Positions 1,099 to 36,913 of a stretch of 40,191 nt of DNA are shown piece after piece (the first letter of the stretch is position 1; every line of letters begins with the position of its first letter). The notes beneath the pieces were generated by a model that worked only from the letters and a program-made list of their open reading frames with translations, ran no database searches and was not told the DNA's origin. Source of the stretch: Bacteroidota bacterium (lineage in GTDB: Bacteria > Bacteroidota > Ignavibacteria > Ignavibacteriales > Ignavibacteriaceae); contig JAKAJV010000079.1 in NCBI GenBank assembly GCA_021813585.1, positions 1-40,191 on the forward strand, given 5' to 3'. A program made the translations under genes and the position numbers.

Positions 1099-2617
1099 AT
1101 GTCTCGTTCATCCATTTGTTTCTTAATTTTCTTCGATATTGATAGCGTATTATGCCGAAGCCGATGATTAGAAATAAAGGTACTATAAAGTTCAAGTATT
1201 TTACCAGTGTCTTCGTCCCTTCGGTTATATCGGCATTAAGCGGTCTGGACGTAATGCCTTTGGTCCTTAAAGCTATCAAGCCGGTATCGTCGGAAAGCCA
1301 GTCGATTGCATTAGCCATTAAGTTTACGTTATCGGGATTAAGCTTCTGCGCACTCTGCCCGGCTCCGTTGGTAGCAAAATCTCCGTCTCCGAAAACAACC
1401 ATTTTGGAATAAACGCCGCCCTCAATTTTACCATCAACTGCAACTGCAACCGGCAAGTTGGAGACCGGGAAATCGCTTGCAGACCATTGTCTCGATACAT
1501 CGAAATAAACCGGCGGCCGCTGTATACCCGCCCGCTGCGAAGTTGAGGCCAGCGTAACTATGTGAATCGAGCTGTCCGTTGCTGAATATTTTATCGGGCT
1601 GCAGAAAGGCATCATAACCGATTCGATTCCCTTCGTAATCGGATGGTCGGCAAAGGTTGTAATAACCGGCAGGTAAGGAAACCTTACCGGGGTATTCATT
1701 ACAAACATGCCCTGCTGCTGCCTTACCATTATGTTGCCGCAATTTGCATCTACAATAAAACCGTCTTCAACTGTTATCCCTTTCTTTTCAAGCCAGGTGT
1801 TTAAACCGGTATAAAGGCTGGAGCCGGTAGCTTTGGACAGATCGCCTTTAACTCTGTTCAATGCAATCAAAATTCTTCCTCCGCGCGATAGAAAATTATC
1901 CAGCTGTGCAAGATGCGCATCGGACATAGTGTCCGAAGGCGCTATTATTACCAGTGTTTTGTATTCATCCGGAATCGCGCCGGTTGAATCATTAAAATTA
2001 AACGGACTCACGTCGTATAAAACCGATAGCTGCTCGTCAAGCTGGGGCAGCTCTGAGAGCGAAGGCTCGCCGTCACCTTGAAGAAATGCGATCTTCGGCT
2101 TGTTCTGGATAGACAATTTTTTAATGGTCGATGATAATGCATACTCCATTGCAGAGCCCGGCTGAATGAAAGGGATCTTCTCCGTTCTACCTTCATATTG
2201 AAGAACAGCGCCCAGGTAAGCCCGCTGCTGCTTCATCTGATCGCGTTCGCGAACGTTAATTACAATCGGCTGTATACCGGCCTCCTGTGCCTGAATTTCC
2301 TTTTCCCTGTTCTCGTTCGGATTGGTAAATTGATATACTACTTTGCCGCCGGATGCATTGCTGTATTCAATCAGCATATCTTTAAAATCATTTCTTACCC
2401 GTGCTATATCCGGAGGAAGATTTTCTGAGAAATAAGCAGTAACTGTTACAGGTGCCGTTAGCTTGTTTAATATATCCTTCGTCGCTTTGCTTAAAGTATA
2501 TTGATGCCCTTCGGTAAAATCCAGTCTTACAAAAAAACGGTCGGCTACAATATTCAAGAGCAGGAGTATTCCGAAAAGCAGGGCAACTGTGGTTATAATT
2601 TTTTTCTTAGTCAGCAT
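1091..2617 (-). CDS. GldG-like ABC transporter auxiliary protein
   Basis: A 508-residue protein with a signal-anchor helix at about residues 8-26, a large extracytoplasmic body, and a C-terminal membrane helix at about residues 474-492 followed by a basic tail. This bitopic layout and the order ATPase, permease, this gene match GldG (ABC_transp_aux family) of the gliding-associated ABC transporter in Bacteroidota. The body includes a stretch resembling the DUF4350-like part of GldG, with text such as GDGEPSLSELPQLDE. The gene begins 3 bases after the permease stop, so the two are co-transcribed. Homologues occur in non-gliding bacteria, so gliding is not implied. Confidence 0.85.
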   Translation of the reverse strand: MLTKKKIITTVALLFGILLLLNIVADRFFVRLDFTEGHQYTLSKATKDILNKLTAPVTVTAYFSENLPPDIARVRNDFKDMLIEYSNASGGKVVYQFTNPNENREKEIQAQEAGIQPIVINVRERDQMKQQRAYLGAVLQYEGRTEKIPFIQPGSAMEYALSSTIKKLSIQNKPKIAFLQGDGEPSLSELPQLDEQLSVLYDVSPFNFNDSTGAIPDEYKTLVIIAPSDTMSDAHLAQLDNFLSRGGRILIALNRVKGDLSKATGSSLYTGLNTWLEKKGITVEDGFIVDANCGNIMVRQQQGMFVMNTPVRFPYLPVITTFADHPITKGIESVMMPFCSPIKYSATDSSIHIVTLASTSQRAGIQRPPVYFDVSRQWSASDFPVSNLPVAVAVDGKIEGGVYSKMVVFGDGDFATNGAGQSAQKLNPDNVNLMANAIDWLSDDTGLIALRTKGITSRPLNADITEGTKTLVKYLNFIVPLFLIIGFGIIRYQYRRKLRNKWMNETYG

Positions 2618-34678: not shown

Positions 34679-35491
34679 TTATTTCCTGTTCAATATGCTT
34701 TTATCAAGCGGAAGCCTGGCTGCCGGAACACTCTTTGTCTTTAGCTGGGTGTTCCCTTTTACAGTCTGGAATGCCCAATCGAAAACAAGCCTGTCGTTAG
34801 CAATGGTCTTTACTCTTATTTTGGCATAATAATTATCCCACGTCCAAATTACATAAGTATGACCAGGGATTGCAATTGCATCGCCGGTTGTGGACCAGCC
34901 GGAAGACGGTGCATAGGGGATATCGTAAATATCATTTGTCTGTCCCATGTCTTCAATATATGTATCTGTCCAAACGTCGATGTAGTATGTGCCGTTATAA
35001 TTTTCGAAAAAGAAATCGGCAGACTTATCATCGTAAGGGACTACCGAGTAAGTTGTAAATGAAAATCCGGAAGTGTTCGGAAAATTTCTGTAATTAAAAA
35101 CCGATTCATTAAATCCTTCCGGACGAGGAGTAGCATTTACATTATCATAGCTCAAATCACTTTCGTTGCCGTTATAATCGTATGCAGTTACCGCATAATA
35201 ATAAGTATCTCCGTTATGTGCGCCGTAGTCTATGTAATAATCATTTGTAGTAGAACCCAGAAGGGTGTACTTTCCGTTATAGCTGTAGGAGTAGTATACA
35301 TTATAACCTGCCAGGTCTCTAGCCTGACTCGGGTTCCAAGATATATCAACCCTATTATCGCCGTTAACAACTTGAACGCCGGTAGGAGGTGAGGGCGGCT
35401 GTGTATCTACTTCAAAAAATCCGTGCCTGCTGCACGCCGCAAATAAAAATACAGATATAAAAGCTGCGATATAAATTATATTCTTCTTCAT
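34679..35491 (-). CDS. Lipoprotein with fibronectin type III domain
   Basis: I start at ATG 35491, since AAAGGTG lies six bases upstream; a GTG at 35500 would be fused to that ribosome site. The 270-residue product has a type II signal peptide ending in FLFAAC. After it is one fibronectin type III domain (about residues 33-125) with the marks PPSPPTGVQVVNGDNRVDISWNPS, YNVYYS and the segment YYYAVTAYDYNGNESDLS. The C-terminal half (about 130-270) is unassigned, tyrosine- and aspartate-rich, and probably beta-stranded. It is likely a surface lipoprotein. It is separated from the DUF4783 gene by about 100 bases. Confidence 0.85.
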   Translation of the reverse strand: MKKNIIYIAAFISVFLFAACSRHGFFEVDTQPPSPPTGVQVVNGDNRVDISWNPSQARDLAGYNVYYSYSYNGKYTLLGSTTNDYYIDYGAHNGDTYYYAVTAYDYNGNESDLSYDNVNATPRPEGFNESVFNYRNFPNTSGFSFTTYSVVPYDDKSADFFFENYNGTYYIDVWTDTYIEDMGQTNDIYDIPYAPSSGWSTTGDAIAIPGHTYVIWTWDNYYAKIRVKTIANDRLVFDWAFQTVKGNTQLKTKSVPAARLPLDKSILNRK

Positions 35492-35735
35492 TTTGGTCAC
35501 CTTTAAATAAGTTCATTTTTTCTAAGCCAAAATGAATGCCAGTAAAAATTTACATTTATTAGCGATATAGAATATTTTAGCTAAAATTATTGTACTAATT
35601 TTTATACAAGATGTATAGCTGCGTGTAAAAAAATAATTTCAGAATCTTAGCGGCAATGAGTATAAAAATTGAATCCCTAATAAATCCAATGACAATCAAT
35701 CCGGTATCGAAATATCTTTTTTCTGTTGCAAGGCA

Positions 35736-35941
35736 ATTTCGATACGCCGCCTAAAGATATCTACTCAATCGCCTTGCTTACAACCACAGGTCATCGAGTG
35801 TTCCGAGTGAAACGAGGAACGTATCGAGATGACCGACCGTGATTTCGATACGCCGCCTAAAGGCACTTGCTCAATCACCTTGCTTACAACCACAGGTCAT
35901 CGAGTGTTCCGAGTGAAACGAGGAACGTATCGAGATGACCG
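35736..35941 (+). repeat. Tandem pair of a 106-bp palindrome-bearing repeat, upstream of the GIY-YIG gene
   Basis: The unit begins with ATTTCGATACGCCGCCTAAAG at 35736 and again at 35842, a period of 106. Each unit ends in a 46-base hairpin (35789-35834 and 35895-35940). Its outer arms are GGTCATC/GATGACC, with an asymmetric internal loop (GAGTG-type against CGTATCGA) and a short inner stem TTCC/GGAA. The two hairpins are identical. The spacer between hairpins is nearly identical, so this is a tandem repeat and not a CRISPR array. A partial inverted unit end (GGTATCGAAAT) lies at 35703-35713. The region 35492-35735 has no gene and is plain AT-rich sequence. Confidence 0.92.
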
Positions 35942-36043
35942 GAAGTAGTCTCAACTCACTATCATTCAAAACAAATTTCAATTAAACTTTATATCCGTGT
36001 AAATCATTATATTTAATCTATAGAATAATATTAATGAAAGATC

Positions 36044-36382
36044 ATGAGCGCAGGTTATATGTATATTCTTGAATGTTCCGACGGAACATTTTATACCGGC
36101 AGTACAAAAGATCTGGAAATAAGAGTAGCACAACATCAAGGAACCGGTCATCTCGATACGATTCGCCAAGGCGAATCACTCGATGACCGGGGCGCAAATT
36201 ATACTAAGAAAAGAAGACCTGTTAAGCTTGTCTATTATGAAGAATATTCCAGAATAGATGAGGCTTTCTACCGTGAAAAACAAGTGCAGGGTTGGAGCCA
36301 TAGAAAAAAGCTAGCACTTATCGATGGTAAACCCGAATTACTTCCAAAGCTTGCTAAAAAAATTTTTCGTAAAAAAGGATGA
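36044..36382 (+). CDS. GIY-YIG nuclease with an in-frame palindromic-repeat insertion
   Basis: A 112-residue GIY-YIG single-domain protein of the YhbQ/UvrC-N type. Landmarks are MYILEC (6-11, the GIY strand), FYTGST (16-21, the YIG strand), Arg27 and His31 in DLEIRVAQH, then NYTKKRRPVKLVYYEE and the catalytic Glu in FYREKQVQGWS. Residues about 34-50 (TGHLDTIRQGESLDDRG) are absent from ordinary relatives, which run from HQ-x-G directly to the GANYTKKR segment. The DNA for that insert is a 47-bp palindrome of the flanking repeat family. The gene is on the opposite strand from its neighbours and has a weak ribosome site before the ATG. The cellular substrate is unknown. Confidence 0.9.
   Translation: MSAGYMYILECSDGTFYTGSTKDLEIRVAQHQGTGHLDTIRQGESLDDRGANYTKKRRPVKLVYYEEYSRIDEAFYREKQVQGWSHRKKLALIDGKPELLPKLAKKIFRKKG
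36144..36190 (-). repeat. In-gene palindrome of the 106-bp repeat family, reverse orientation
   Basis: The 47 bases have outer arms CCGGTCATC/GATGACCGG (9 bp), an asymmetric internal loop (TCGATAC against ACTC), and an inner stem GATTCGCC/GGCGAATC (8 bp) with loop AA. The outer arms and internal loop match the flanking hairpins read in reverse complement (TCGATACG and CACTC). Only the inner stem differs. It lies in frame within the GIY-YIG gene and encodes about 16 residues without stops. Confidence 0.88.
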
Positions 36383-36398
36383 GAAGTAATTTCCGGTG

Positions 36399-36604
36399 AT
36401 TTCGATGCGCCTCCTAAAGGCATCTACTCAATCACGTTGCTTACAACCACAGGTCATCGAGTGTTCCGAGTGAAACGAGGAACGTATCGAGATGACCGAC
36501 GGTGATTTCGATACGTCGTCTAAAGGCATCTACTCAATCACGTTGCTTACAACCACAGGTCATCGAGTGTTCCGAGTGAAACGAGGAACGTATCGAGATG
36601 ACCG
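36399..36604 (+). repeat. Tandem pair of the 106-bp repeat, downstream of the GIY-YIG gene
   Basis: Two further units begin with ATTTCGATGCG at 36399 and ATTTCGATACG at 36505, again 106 bases apart and in the same orientation as the upstream pair. Their 46-base hairpins (36452-36497 and 36558-36603) are identical to the upstream ones, while the linker arms differ by a few bases. The gene is therefore flanked by direct repeats. The remaining 36605-36913 has no gene; it holds a 7-bp hairpin at 36782-36800 (ATTGTTG/CAACAAT) and a short repeated GGAAGATG. Confidence 0.92.
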
Positions 36605-36913
36605 GAAACAGCAGATAGAAAAATATCTTAGTTAACCCGGATAATCACATAGCGCGGTAAGACACAATGGAAGATGTTTGATGGATGATGGAAGATGTAA
36701 AAAAGATTAAAATATCTTGACATAAAAGACAAGGATTTAAGTGCCAATACTATAATGGTGTCTTCAGTCTGCGCGAATACAATTGTTGACCTGCAACAAT
36801 CTAATACTGCCCAATTGAATGACCCGTCTTCGCTTTCAGCTGCGCCGGGCAGGCAATTAAATGAAAACTGAATGACTGCTTAAAAATTAGGAGAGCAACG
36901 ATAAACTTATCAT

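Follow-up and report, generated by a model that had tools for sequence, protein, structure and literature searches.

In the 40,191-nucleotide window that we analysed, contig C8 of an assembly of 4,541,192 bases in 142 contigs, a gene for a small GIY-YIG nuclease stands between arrays of short palindromes. Our best reading of the sequence is that the nuclease and its cognate REP-like hairpins would work together much as RAYT transposases and REP palindromes do, but with a different enzyme fold. We put a probability of roughly 0.6 on the locus being a selfish cassette, in which a single-domain GIY-YIG nuclease gene is bracketed by its own recognition hairpins, while the narrower proposal that nuclease and hairpin are partners is, on sequence evidence, very probable. 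Ssn proteins are site-specific single-stranded nucleases of the GIY-YIG superfamily, and work said to have appeared in Nat Commun in 2025 reportedly tied such a nuclease to a repeat (NTS) in Neisseria meningitidis and tested the specificities of homologues. A tie between a GIY-YIG nuclease and a repeat would therefore already be known from Neisseria, and the system described here is probably Ssn-like in kind, with a hairpin class and an anatomy that would make it a variant.

The GIY-YIG gene (36044-36382) is bracketed by two 209-nt copies (35736-35944 and 36399-36607) that are 94% identical and each composed of two 106-bp units, which agrees with the initial annotation of two tandem units on either side. 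Each unit in turn consists of two hairpins that share one motif and are oppositely oriented, a detail absent from that annotation, and the motif consists of a variable outer stem, the asymmetric loop TCGATAC/ACTC, a variable inner stem and the matching outer arm. There are nine copies at the locus (Table 1), one of them within the nuclease gene; seven have at least 6 of 7 outer pairs and two (35845 and 36402) are degenerate and were found by a relaxed scan, while the 46-nt GGTCATC/GATGACC hairpins are spaced 106 bp apart within each array. The reversed 47-bp palindrome that had been reported in frame within the gene was likewise recovered, carries the same motif and folds well as single-stranded DNA, at -15.2 kcal/mol (z -5.2) for one strand and -16.0 kcal/mol (z -5.9) for the other (0 of 200 shuffles equal). 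One flank hairpin also folded (z -2.9, with 4 of 200 shuffles equally good), a degenerate copy gave no fold relative to shuffles (z 0.4), and the near-whole unit 35736-35835, the one unit tested, was no better than shuffles (z -0.35), with one of its two palindromes folding. Immediately left of the array, CCGGTATCGAAATATC at 35701-35717 is a half-hairpin-like fragment and may be a decayed remnant of an earlier copy, close to where the cassette inserted.

Table 1. Positions of the cassette features in the window and of the tRNA-linked locus L164 (own numbering).
Feature	Position	Strand	Remark
Lipoprotein gene-pyrC interval containing the cassette	35501..36913		
Left repeat array, two 106-bp units, each an oppositely oriented hairpin pair	35732..35944		
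Hairpin TCGATAC...ACTC	35732..35773	+	
Hairpin GGTCATC/GATGACC	35789..35834	-	
Degenerate hairpin	35838..35879	+	relaxed scan, TCGATACG at 35845; ends read from sequence
Hairpin GGTCATC/GATGACC	35895..35940	-	
Single-domain GIY-YIG nuclease gene, 112 aa	36044..36382	+	
Internal in-frame hairpin, 47 nt	36144..36190	+	orientation opposite to GGTCATC flank copies
Right repeat array, two 106-bp units	36395..36607		
Degenerate hairpin TCGATGCG	36395..36436	+	relaxed scan, TCGATGCG at 36402; ends read from sequence
Hairpin GGTCATC/GATGACC	36452..36497	-	
Hairpin GGTGATT/AATCACG	36501..36542	+	
Hairpin GGTCATC/GATGACC	36558..36603	-	
L164: tRNA-Lys gene	1378..1450	+	
L164: GIY-YIG gene match	from 1501	+	

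We compiled 129 distinct hairpins of this class (class A), selected for TCGATA, ACTC and at least 5 of 7 outer pairs, features that they share by construction. Their left arms comprise 59 different sequences, position 4 of the stem is G-C in 47, C-G in 46 and T-A in 23, and an inner stem of at least 4 bp, which was not a selection criterion, is present in 92 of the 129 compared with 4 of 129 with shuffled cores. Since the outer arms vary and the inner stems pair, the fixed element is the asymmetric internal loop between interchangeable helices.

Searching the assembly with the 46-nt hairpin at up to three mismatches returned four copies, all at the locus, and none with the reversed pattern. 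A looser scan (GAGT, 4-34 nt, GTATCGANNNNACC) gave 15 raw matches that merged to 11 distinct places, six at the window gene, four at a gene on contig C38 and one elsewhere, with one match for the reversed control. The C38 gene is a second of the same type, broken by an in-frame TGA, and the clustering at GIY-YIG genes that the initial annotation had proposed to look for is thus seen at 10 of the 11 places. A third related GIY-YIG gene, on contig C129 (L008, match 1501-1734), belongs to another clade and is bracketed by inverted TGTCATTCCCGCGAAAGCGGGAA, a sequence that resembles CGTC/dRS3 repeats. The association held in the window genome but not throughout its relatives, where nuclease-free copies occur: around motif matches away from the known gene, none of the 19 regions fetched from related genomes (~1.5 kb each side, several stopping at a contig edge) encodes a GIY-YIG protein, and the only one of 20 fetched regions that does is that of the known gene in genome G017. 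Some of the nuclease-free copies lie in genomes where no relative was found at E<=1e-6 (G013, G016, G019, G021, G057 and G072). These orphan repeats are compatible with a partner nuclease, but the presence of the repeat does not imply the presence of the enzyme.

Comparison with genus mates showed that the cassette occupies a gap that is otherwise short. In the window genome 1417 bp separate the lipoprotein gene (34679-35500, minus strand), measured from its start, from the last codon of pyrC (also minus), while in 8 of 8 checkable mates the same gap is 143-192 bp and contains neither a GIY-YIG match nor the motif. These eight, from 11 genus mates with a pyrC match, have both neighbours on the contig and gaps comparable to within a few codons. 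A ninth, L174, retains only a lipoprotein remnant at the site and lacks both GIY-YIG gene and motif, and in L175 and L176 the contig ends there; the closest gene among the genus mates, that of G017, lies on a contig other than the one with pyrC. For the C38 cassette, G022 was the sole relative in which both neighbours were found, and there the homologous genes lie within ~180 bp compared with ~1 kb here. Because the cassettes are absent between the same neighbours in relatives, both look like insertions, and by this sequence comparison the window cassette is one. We rejected a phage or plasmid origin, since matches in 16 phage and 12 plasmid records were all below 60% identity.

The only Pfam match of the 112-residue product is GIY-YIG (E 5.9e-14), and a search with NCBIfam profiles gave no match above the cut-off. 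In the AlphaFold2 model (mean pLDDT 83.9) the insert lies in a low-confidence loop after helix 24-32, and the nearest solved folds by Foldseek are UPF0213 (E 1.5e-5), with structure 1zg2 first there and matched by profile at E 1.1e-18, followed by Slx1 (E 0.007 to 0.06). At the 37 columns invariant in nine insert-free relatives the window protein departs at one, with R for L in RRPV. Relative to the sister gene in G017, dN is 0.067 and dS 1.29 outside the insert, while within it dN is 0.58 over 15 aligned codons, and as judged from these substitution rates the nuclease is under purifying selection.

Compared with relatives that have no insert, the internal copy lengthens the gene by 14 codons; its loop sequence has no second occurrence in the genome. 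Among the 181 genes that we collected, the expected check for relatives with the same insert at the same residue returned only the broken C38 paralogue, in which it is further expanded, and the G017 sister. As the three genes are related and carry it at one residue, the insert looks like one ancestral event and not recurrent invasion, and we rejected the idea of a conserved device, given that no other of these genes carries the copy. The initial annotation had taken the combination of flanking and internal copies as evidence of a functional link; the flanks do support it, whereas the internal copy, as one old event, adds little. Palindromes also overrun the end of the nuclease frame in L006, L012, L013, L018 and L020, and C-terminal residues such as KVAS and VVEPVETT are therefore repeat-encoded in those relatives.

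The purifying selection, and the position of nearly all copies in the window genome beside genes and not dispersed, would also suit a resident function of the Ssn kind, in which the repeats mark DNA for natural transformation or recombination control, stay by the gene and are not moved by the nuclease, as the N. meningitidis family reportedly works. We consider this unlikely, although it is the strongest of the alternatives: genus mates lack the cassette at this site and a relative at E<=1e-6 is present in 28 of 80 family genomes, which together argue that this is not a conserved core function, and class-A nucleases are common to distant phyla.

We assessed how general the arrangement is using a scan of a species-genome collection, which gave at least 591 stretches, at least 571 of them encoding a relative. 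The best 80 of these at least 571 were used, three of which duplicate loci that also bear G handles, and by their titles the hosts are Bacteroidota, Ignavibacteria, Calditrichia, Cloacimonadota, Chlorobiaceae, Chloroflexi, Spirochaetia, Cyanobacteria, Pseudomonadota and others. Bracketing was scored by aligning 300 bp upstream with 300 bp downstream at a cut-off of 16, and five of the 80 had too little flank, leaving 75 genes. The initial annotation had named close relatives without flanking repeats among the findings that would speak against a link; 48 of the 75 are bracketed, compared with 11 of 347 control ORFs from the same loci (Fisher p 4e-33), 6 of 108 ORFs with intergenic flanks (Fisher 3e-18) and 0 of 75 shuffles, and the other 27 fall below the cut-off. 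When outer stems were required strictly, 52 of the 80 loci had hairpins, on both sides in 22 and on one side in 30. Using wider core classes (A-E), defined after reading 20 further loci, a core palindrome lies within 350 bp of 76 of the 80 relatives (upstream in 56, downstream in 67, both in 47) compared with 39 of 1539 control tiles, although 76 of 80 is not an independent figure because the classes were written after reading loci among the 80.

A hold-out set comprised 70 GIY-YIG loci that a Pfam search of 148 genomes from the phylum had matched; 30 came directly with the search, and 40 were taken in order of E-value, omitting loci in regions already sampled and three others. Palindrome classes were present at 22 of 23 hold-out genes in the REP half of the nuclease tree and at 1 of 47 in the other half, a count that is independent except for L151, which is the same gene as L028, and that has L183, L195 and L199, paralogues outside the tree, assigned by hand to the other half. 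Separately, type I restriction specificity genes lie directly downstream of the GIY-YIG gene in L018 (1896-3152) and L119 (5430-6800), with Pfam Methylase_S matches of E 9.2e-57 and 7.6e-19, respectively.

The tree was built from 175 proteins over 98 columns, after three duplicate loci and three near-identical paralogues had been dropped from the 181, and has many unresolved forks. Its rows carry seven labels: four palindrome classes, with the co-occurring C and E merged, the GTCATTCC type, tRNA and none. Labels change 28 times on the tree against a shuffled mean of 110.5, with 0 of 200 shuffles as low, and 19 times when labelled rows alone are counted. The window clade is class A in 20 of 20 rows (SH-aLRT 93), and NCBI ranks place the hosts of its named rows in five phyla (Bacteroidota, Calditrichota, Chlorobiota, Chloroflexota and Spirochaetota), though many hosts are MAGs, for which contig misassignment is possible. 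Not all 26 class-A labels belong to the window clade: six lie elsewhere, including that of the broken C38 gene on a long branch, and the class-A label regex also matches 26 of 729 control tiles. The pattern persists within host groups: among 75 named labelled rows there are 10 changes, compared with 37.6, 34.8 and 36.6 when labels are shuffled within phylum, class and order, respectively, and 0 of 200 shuffles were as low at each rank (17 rows without a class rank and 26 without an order rank being shuffled together). Two palindrome classes are found where a genome has nucleases from two clades, as in the window genome (A and the GTCATTCC type), the MAG C4.bin.5 (L066 with D, L120 with C) and G006 (L014 with C, L165 with B). 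Sequences of the GTCATTCC type occur in 28 of 42 flanks of another clade, compared with 2 of 80 control tiles, and seven class-A genes have none in their 14 flanks. At the level of sequence these comparisons show that palindrome class follows nuclease clade across hosts, and that it does so within host phylum, class and order strengthens the case for partnership.

The initial annotation had weighed partnership against a tolerant landing site, where palindromes spread by other movers, for example RAYT/Y1 transposases, pile up around a dispensable gene. Y1-family transposases are indeed present in 8 of 8 genomes searched, with two matches in the window genome, nuclease-free palindromes exist, and the internal copy shows that the gene tolerates insertion. 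However, a class-A palindrome lies at only 1 of 20 Y1 loci fetched (of 30 matches listed), where the Y1 frame has stops, and we rejected Y1/RAYT as the mover on this count. Palindromes are also rare elsewhere in the window genome and their class follows the nuclease tree, within host groups too, which makes a passive landing site improbable. The 10 of 11 motif places at nuclease genes, the bracketing of relatives over control ORFs and the tracking of the tree by class all favour partnership. Still less probable, to the point that we give it very little weight, is that the hairpins are mainly RNA elements such as terminators or determinants of mRNA stability, selected as such for the nuclease gene. 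The gene does have hairpins before and after it, and in some relatives they code for the last part of its reading frame, but upstream copies, inverted pairs, tandem copies, clade-specific cores and interchangeable stems are unexpected of terminators.

In one set of genes from the other half of the tree, 15 of 27 have a same-strand tRNA gene within 300 bp upstream, compared with 1 of 154 other genes; this set, which does not form a single resolved clade, was picked out visually from the tree once the tRNAs had been noticed. An upstream tRNA is present at 6 of 737 control ORFs, one being itself a GIY-YIG gene and one gene being counted in two loci. The tRNA-linked loci include L147, L158, L161, L164 (Table 1), L202, L206, L212, L214 and L217. 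In 13 of 16 genes behind a tRNA, a piece of that tRNA aligns again downstream of the gene at a raw score of at least 15, and in 8 of those 13 the downstream piece has the GGTTCGA arm; at L193 the downstream side has another tRNA gene. One branch may use the tRNA T-arm as a landing hairpin, leaving part of the tRNA repeated behind the nuclease gene. If so, a single ssDNA hairpin-homing mechanism could be hosted either by tRNA arms or by REP palindromes, the T-arm likewise carrying TTCGA. Tandem GIY-YIG arrays with a period of ~317-420 bp were also observed, in L183 (G042:C1:1733881-1734727), where the array adjoins a tRNA-Pro gene, and at G154:C2:234372-235265 and G144:C86:45033-46092.

With Ssn, as reportedly described, the locus shares a small single-domain GIY-YIG nuclease with cognate repeats around its gene; homologues of Ssn reportedly have their own specificities, as the relatives here would. 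It differs in the TCGATAC/ACTC hairpin class, the inverted-pair units, the intragenic copy, the empty site in genus mates and the few dispersed copies. Rickettsia palindromic elements occur inside protein genes, as does the in-frame palindrome here; unlike those, the invaded gene here encodes the putative partner of the repeat, and the insertion is seen in one lineage only. The fold is that of UPF0213 (PDB 1zg2 and 1ywl) and Slx1, the latter having a further zinc-finger domain and the partner Slx4, unlike the window protein, and we know of no link of UPF0213 or Slx1 to repeats. Nor does the locus fit a MITE or IS with terminal inverted repeats and a transposase, the sole gene of the cassette being GIY-YIG and the flanking arrays being in direct orientation.

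With RAYT/REPIN systems (PMC3116915, PMC8266576) the locus shares a palindrome-flanked gene, inverted pairs, tandem clusters beside the gene, irregular hairpins and the pairing of repeat class with enzyme lineage. It differs from them in that the enzyme is GIY-YIG, its sole Pfam match, and not an HUH/Y1 tyrosine transposase; there is no GTAG tag at the stem base, which reads CACA before GGTCATC and GA or GG after GATGACC, although GTAG occurs within the loop of some copies (GAGTAG); the hairpin pair is not predicted to fold as one in the unit tested; and the window genome has almost no dispersed copies, while some relatives do. The 2013 survey of CGTC-tagged REPs, including neisserial dRS3, states that these are not attached to RAYTs and apparently lack a dedicated transposase (PMC3733652), and also mentions an intragenic palindromic-element case. 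The GTCATTCC-type sequences that flank the related GIY-YIG clade, including the C129 gene of this genome, are like CGTC repeats, whereas the hairpins of the window have another core. One review places E. coli YhbQ and B. subtilis YazA in a group with Slx1 (PMC7017083), and a paper on fungal mitogenomes contains both 'GIY-YIG' and 'RAYT' (PMC7263005). In titles and the starts of abstracts, among the matches listed, we found no tie of bacterial GIY-YIG genes to REP palindromes or tRNA genes.

If the locus is a selfish cassette, the nuclease would use the fixed loop to recognise the hairpin, as a folded single strand or as a cruciform, and would nick it. Cuts at the bracketing hairpins during replication or DNA uptake would release or copy the cassette, and repair after cutting would seed repeats, as tandem units beside the gene and as dispersed copies in some genomes. 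The internal copy would be an old insertion in a surface loop, passively retained, which survived because it is in frame and free of stops. That the nuclease cuts a folded single strand we put at even odds, given the asymmetry of the loop, a fold shared with the structure-selective Slx1 and the reported Ssn precedent; that hairpin cutting moves the cassette we put slightly below that, on the strength of the empty sites, of the tandem units and of a distribution over several phyla.

Short palindromes without a RAYT are common bacterial repeats. A tentative extension, which we would sooner doubt than accept, is that single-domain GIY-YIG genes are in general hairpin-bracketed selfish cassettes and the missing enzymes of many such palindromes, namely the TTCGAC..GCTCA, TTCGAGAGCCTCA, TTCGATAC..ACTC and GTCATTCC types, with one branch landing in tRNA T-arms. 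The clade-wise pairing of palindrome and nuclease nonetheless offers a concrete candidate enzyme for several RAYT-less palindrome classes, and native pairs of differing specificity allow a direct test in vitro. If these nucleases do cut single-stranded hairpins, they would be useful ssDNA tools.
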